From a candidate division WOR-3 bacterium (lineage in GTDB: Bacteria; SDB-A): a stretch of DNA of 8,408 nucleotides. The DNA is taken from contig JAFGON010000035.1 of the NCBI GenBank assembly GCA_016926475.1, positions 1 to 8,408 of the forward strand. The letters are read 5' to 3'. The position numbers and the translations under genes were made by a program. A model generated the notes under the pieces. It did not search any database and was not told where the DNA came from. It saw only the letters and a list, made by a program, of their open reading frames with translations. Of this stretch, positions 8,218-8,408 are shown piece by piece; the stretch's first letter is position 1, and each line of letters begins with the position of its first letter.

Positions 8218-8260
8218 TTATATTAAAAGTTGATTGACAAAAATCAGTTTTTTAATATAA
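8218..8260. repeat. 11-bp inverted repeat enclosing the promoter at 8234-8261
   Basis: TTATATTAAAA (8218-8228) is the exact reverse complement of TTTTAATATAA (8250-8260). Inside it, TGATT (8231-8235) and AATCA (8242-8246) extend the symmetry with a 1-nt offset. The -35 hexamer is in the centre and the -10 hexamer in the right arm, so a protein bound here would block RNA polymerase. Suggested role: repressor operator. Confidence 0.6.
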
Positions 8261-8261
8261 T
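8234..8261 (+). promoter_or_regulatory. Consensus sigma-70 promoter ahead of the (CT)16 tract
   Basis: TTGACA (8234-8239), a 16-nt spacer and TATAAT (8256-8261): both hexamers match the consensus completely. The expected transcription start is at about 8267-8269, which coincides with the ATG at 8268. It drives the CT tract and the gene beginning at 8363. Confidence 0.82.
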
Positions 8262-8267
8262 CTCAAT

Positions 8268-8354
8268 ATGTTATTGGATACTAACTCTCTCTCTCTCTCT
8301 CTCTCTCTCTCTCTCTGCCGTTGCGTAGCTTACGACAATGTTTTTCAGGAATAA
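8268..8354 (+). CDS. 28-codon ORF containing the CT tract; candidate phase-variable leader of the next gene
   Basis: Read from ATG 8268, this gives MLLDTN, five Ser-Leu pairs encoded by the CT tract, then CRCVAYDNVFQE and a TAA at 8352-8354. There is no ribosome-binding site, and the ATG lies at the predicted transcription start, so it would have to be translated as a leaderless message. If the tract had 15 or 18 units instead of 16, the ORF would continue in frame through PLRSLRQCFSGIKFI into the ATG at 8363 and beyond. With 17 units it would stop at TAG 8326-8328. Whether it is translated is unproven. The alternative is that this whole stretch is an untranslated leader. Confidence 0.3.
   Translation: MLLDTNSLSLSLSLSLCRCVAYDNVFQE
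8285..8316 (+). repeat. (CT)16 perfect dinucleotide tract
   Basis: Sixteen uninterrupted CT units (32 nt) begin about 17 nt after the predicted transcription start and end 46 nt before the next ATG. Perfect dinucleotide arrays this long are rare in bacterial genomes and are typical of loci switched by slipped-strand mispairing. In the transcript it is a pure pyrimidine tract. Confidence 0.97.
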
Positions 8355-8362
8355 AATTCATA

Positions 8363-8408
8363 ATGAATATTTCCATAAAAGAATATCCGGTGAAGCCGAG
8401 GGCTTCAA
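8363..8408 (+). CDS. Start of an unidentified gene, cut by the right edge
   Basis: From ATG 8363, 15 codons are visible (MNISIKEYPVKPRAS) and remain open to the window end. A modest AGGA (8347-8350) lies 12 nt upstream, slightly far for a ribosome-binding site. The same frame is open back to the end of the CT tract. The fragment is too short to identify, and no function is proposed. Location behind a consensus promoter and a CT microsatellite suggests its expression may vary between cells. Surface or secreted products are common at such loci in other bacteria, but nothing here shows that. Confidence 0.45.
   Translation, partial: MNISIKEYPVKPRAS

Follow-up and report, generated by a model that had tools for sequence, protein, structure and literature searches.

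A CT repeat that alters the frame of a putative leader ORF, a likely but not proven switch ahead of a secreted-protein gene in a candidate division WOR-3 bacterium

Most known cases of simple-repeat phase variation come from host-adapted pathogens. In Neisseria, the opa surface genes form a multi-gene family and carry a coding (CTCTT)n repeat in the signal peptide, and in Helicobacter pylori, hopZ and babB vary in phase through 5' CT repeats. Leader-peptide coupling and attenuation provide another type of control, in which a short ORF ends just 5' of a Shine-Dalgarno (SD) sequence that the free leader keeps base-paired. H. pylori oipA also has a 5' CT tract, whose unit number sets the reading frame (PMC10564699), and a G-repeat in the leader of the H. 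pylori tlpB-hp0102 operon acts with RepG to make operon output dependent on repeat length (PMC8295292). The literature that we searched, whose coverage does not extend to most subscription journals, contained no account of a phase-variable leader ORF.

The stretch of DNA analysed here (the window) is the whole of contig C35, 8,408 nucleotides long, from a 2.15-Mb genome of a candidate division WOR-3 bacterium (G000). This genome was compared within a phylum set of four genomes (G000-G003) from a sparsely sampled lineage. Because C35 stops at 8408, the gene 3' of the repeat lies off it and was identified through the congeneric genome G002. Fourfold-degenerate sites of groEL, groES, glgA and cobO differ by 65-75% between the window's genome and G002, indicating that synonymous divergence is saturated and that unconstrained sequence would be unrecognisable. 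The full arrangement is found in G002, with groES and groEL, a pilin gene, a terminator, a promoter, an ATG, (CT)12 and a matching 3' flank; additional genes lie between groES and the pilin gene. The CT-tract element was absent from G001 and G003 in this within-phylum comparison (n=4), and the locus is known from two sequences only, the window and G002. Its features in the window are as follows.

7715-8116, + strand: type IV pilin-like gene with an N-terminal methylation motif (PF07963, E 2e-8; TIGR02532), conserved in G002
8133-8163, + strand: intrinsic terminator 3' of the pilin gene, between it and the promoter
8186-8220, + strand: conserved block 5' of the -35 hexamer, ~33 of 35 bases identical in G002 (alignments)
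8234-8261, + strand: sigma-70 promoter TTGACA-N16-TATAAT, hexamers and spacer length equal in G002
8268-8284, + strand: ATG at the predicted transcription start and the 14 nt up to the tract, 17 nt in both species
8285-8316, + strand: perfect (CT)16, Ser-Leu repeats in the leader ORF; (CT)12 in G002
8268-8354, + strand: ORF as assembled with 16 units, the 'off' frame, 28 aa, MLLDTN(SL)5CRCVAYDNVFQE*, ending at TAA 8352-8354
8315-8407, + strand: conserved post-tract frame LPLRSLRQC...NISIKEYPVKPRAS, which joins ATG 8268 only at 15, 18, 21... units
8363-8365, + strand: ATG proposed earlier as a gene start, AGG in G002 and not conserved

The pilin-like gene lies directly 5' of the CT locus. A 62-b segment at 8114-8175, running from the pilin stop codon through the terminator, has an identical copy at G000:C82:609-670 (L006), where it comes after the tail of a sorting-domain gene, and in G002 the two equivalent terminators are likewise similar to each other. 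This likeness after pilin and sorting-domain genes suggests that within-genome homogenisation or cassette exchange may have occurred. The block at 8186-8220, which has been kept although the neutral sites around it are saturated, is a possible UP element or regulator site. The promoter matches the consensus at 12 of 12 positions (TTGACA 8234-8239, a 16-nt spacer and TATAAT 8256-8261), and the promoter, the ATG at 8268 and the perfect (CT)16 were all found where the first-pass annotation of this DNA had placed them.

Under a dinucleotide model, ~1e-14 (CT)16 tracts would be expected by chance in 8.4 kb, and this tract is the sole one of at least nine CT units in its genome. The (CT)12 tract of G002 is likewise the sole one of at least eight units in that genome, and a genome-wide scan of G001 and G003 detected no tract of at least eight units. 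A pure dinucleotide tract of 16 units is unstable, and comparing unit numbers among related genomes had been put forward earlier as a check on variability. That comparison, possible for these two species only, showed that the tract has been retained at the orthologous position with 16 units in the window versus 12 in G002; the difference of 4 units, or 8 nt, cannot be divided by three and changes the frame. The codons between ATG 8268 and the tract are poorly conserved relative to G002, apart from the ATG itself, and this ATG is not preceded by an SD sequence. A similar start-site layout was observed at an FG-GAP-like secreted-protein gene (L088, G000:C89; L082, G002:C43), which has a perfect promoter, the arrangement TATAAT-N6-ATG and an SD-led start ~50 nt further on; given this SD-led start, ATG 8268 may not be used.

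When the frames through the tract were recomputed, the arithmetic of the first-pass annotation proved right: the 16-unit ORF runs to its TAA, 17 units bring TAG 8326-8328 in frame, and 15 or 18 units leave the frame open to the contig end, in the frame of ATG 8363. This through-reading frame displays codon-like conservation. In alignments, GCCGTTGCGTAGYTTACGRCAATGTT behind the tract is retained between the window and G002. Across 69 nt of post-tract blocks, picked by eye as the alignable parts of the two sequences, ten differences are distributed as 2, 1 and 7 over codon positions 1, 2 and 3, and the codon changes are 7 synonymous and 2 non-synonymous in one frame only; random placement of these changes gave an equally good result in any of the three frames with P ~0.002. 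In the variable middle of the region the two sequences differ by a net 3 nt, so that the frame is preserved, and the codon-conserved frame is the sole frame open in both species. At the 12 units of G002 it is open from the ATG through the tract as a 55-aa ORF, MLDFMNSLSLSLSLPLRSLRQCSIKRYLRNFSIKIYPVKPRASNHKVYLLPFNNL*, so the ATG and the conserved frame are in phase with 12 units but not with 16.

A perfect hairpin, TGAAGCC-GAG-GGCTTCA, is located at 8391-8407 at the contig end; it is not conserved in G002, indicating that the conservation there is not explained by RNA structure. Single-strand folding revealed no notable RNA structure, and Rfam searches gave no match in the window at gathering thresholds and only sub-threshold matches in G002, nearly all of them on the terminator. 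The leader peptide matched no Pfam or NCBIfam model. Its relatives were absent from collections of genome contigs, viral contigs and plasmids, and among 60 genomes were confined to the two congeneric ones.

ATG 8363 had also been taken as the opening of a new gene, a claim against which closure of its ORF shortly after the window had been named as evidence. We rejected this start, because the aligned codon in G002 is AGG; judged by G002, the ORF closes ~38 nt beyond the window. The N-terminally extended product that had been assigned to one of the three frames fared unevenly, since 15 or 18 units do read through, whereas the outcome is no long protein and amounts to a 55-aa ORF in G002. The ON/OFF switch that had been proposed is supported by the conserved tract, its frame-changing unit number and the conserved frame, but the long extended product was lost from it.

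The gene to the right of the locus is, in G002, a sorting-domain gene separate from the tract ORF. The leader stop at L025:10091-10093 is followed 20 nt on by a GTG start at 10114, with GGAGG at 10104-10108, so that the downstream gene has its own SD and is read in another frame than the leader. Its product is a secreted protein whose T9SS type A sorting domain scores slightly above the NCBIfam cut-off (TIGR04183, 23.9 bits versus 23). Fusion of the leader to this gene in some frame was rejected, because a stop just upstream closes the frame of the gene in G002. A TPR membrane protein and then another pilin are encoded 3' of the secreted-protein gene. In the window's genome, the TPR gene and the tail of another sorting-domain protein (26.4 bits) open contig C82; C35 and C82 are probably neighbours across a gap, and at the beginning of C82 this genome's own homologue of the downstream gene seems to be broken. 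The first 87 b of C82 (L006:1-87) are identical, once reverse-complemented, to the final 87 b of C97 (G000:C97:5229-5315). The two ends adjoin different sorting-domain genes, and both carry AGGAGG-ATGAAATGG pointing outwards, which looks like either a shared assembly node or the end of an insertion sequence that lies in two secreted-protein genes.

Because the tract is conserved with a frame-changing unit number and the post-tract frame is conserved as well, a frame-switching repeat is the best reading of the locus. We consider the chances about even that it is a contingency-type slipped-strand locus, with the repeat lying within a real small leader ORF. The locus has three marks of an SSR contingency locus, namely a long pure repeat, an orthologous tract with a differing number of units, and a frame change of a 55-aa ORF that is predicted to be translated. 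Against a switch, the assembled state of the window is out of frame, which would equally fit a decayed ORF. In the proposed mechanism, the consensus promoter would give a transcript starting at or very near ATG 8268, and a small leader ORF (55 aa in G002), putatively read by leaderless-ATG translation, would cross (CT)n and its Ser-Leu codons. Gain or loss of CT units, presumably by slippage within the population, would bring the codons behind the tract into frame or take them out of it, with 12, 15 and 18 units open and other numbers stopping early. A small basic peptide would consequently be made or not made, and translation that reaches the leader end, or fails to, might turn the secreted protein up or down by coupling or Rho protection. 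A switch ahead of the secreted-protein gene is likely but not proven on these comparisons.

More tentatively, and with considerable doubt, we propose that slippage in a phase-variable leader ORF switches the separate T9SS-type secreted protein downstream via coupling or Rho polarity. When the free leader of G002 was folded, the SD (0.97) and the start (0.94) were paired with the 3'-terminal portion of the leader ORF. Ribosomes halted at either early stop left this pairing unchanged, and reading of the leader to its own stop freed the downstream start, from 0.94 to 0.26. Since 44 of 500 shuffled leaders sequestered SD and start as strongly as G002 does, the pairing is not special, and the coupling is a model and not a result. 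No terminator/antiterminator pair was seen in the leader. Rho is encoded in all four genomes; it prefers pyrimidine-C dinucleotides, and an untranslated CU-rich leader would suit its loading.

The same observations can be read in other ways. It is possible, although on balance unlikely, that the tract lies in an untranslated leader, where its length would tune expression gradually through S1 or sRNA binding, Rho loading or mRNA stability, with the ORF beginning at TTG 8321. This TTG, right behind the tract in both species, is always in frame, and the missing SD ahead of ATG 8268, the unconserved pre-tract codons and a 32-nt pyrimidine-only stretch immediately behind the promoter all agree with such a leader, for which the gradual, sRNA-mediated effect of the H. 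pylori tlpB leader G-repeat offers a precedent (PMC8295292). However, the ATG and its 17-nt spacing to the tract have been kept, the TTG has no SD ahead of it either, and the G002 ATG would share the conserved frame only by coincidence.

We find it rather improbable that the small ORF is real but needed always in frame, with (CT)16 being either a decayed copy or a miscount by the assembly, and the locus never switching. Repeats can be miscounted by short-read assemblies, the contig ends 92 b past the tract and the downstream-gene homologue on C82 looks broken; but a 32-b tract fits well within normal read lengths, and tracts this unstable are usually avoided by constitutive genes. An ordinary microsatellite with no function is already disfavoured and very improbable: although the function of the tract is putative, the one long CT tract in each of two genomes occupies the orthologous site even though synonymous divergence is saturated.

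If the reading of a frame-switching repeat in a leader ORF is true, simple-repeat phase variation reaches sparsely sampled lineages, and it acts at a different control point, a small leader ORF instead of the surface gene. The locus resembles H. pylori oipA in having a surface-related, frame-deciding CT tract near a coding 5' end. In oipA, the outer-membrane protein carries the tract in its own signal peptide; the tract here is in a separate leader ORF before the secreted-protein gene, and in G002 the tract ORF has stopped at L025:10093 before the gene starts at 10114. It shares with Neisseria opa the frame switching, the link to a surface protein and a pyrimidine repeat that follows the start codon, but the opa unit is a pentamer, the repeat sits within the surface gene's signal peptide, and opa is a multi-gene family. 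The tlpB-hp0102 leader is alike in placing a simple repeat in an operon leader and unlike in that its repeat is a homopolymer bound by an sRNA, with a gradual effect and no repeat-containing ORF. As in leader-peptide coupling and attenuation, a short ORF ends shortly before a paired SD (in G002); unlike in those systems, the translated length here would be set by a mutable repeat and not by a ligand or charged tRNA.
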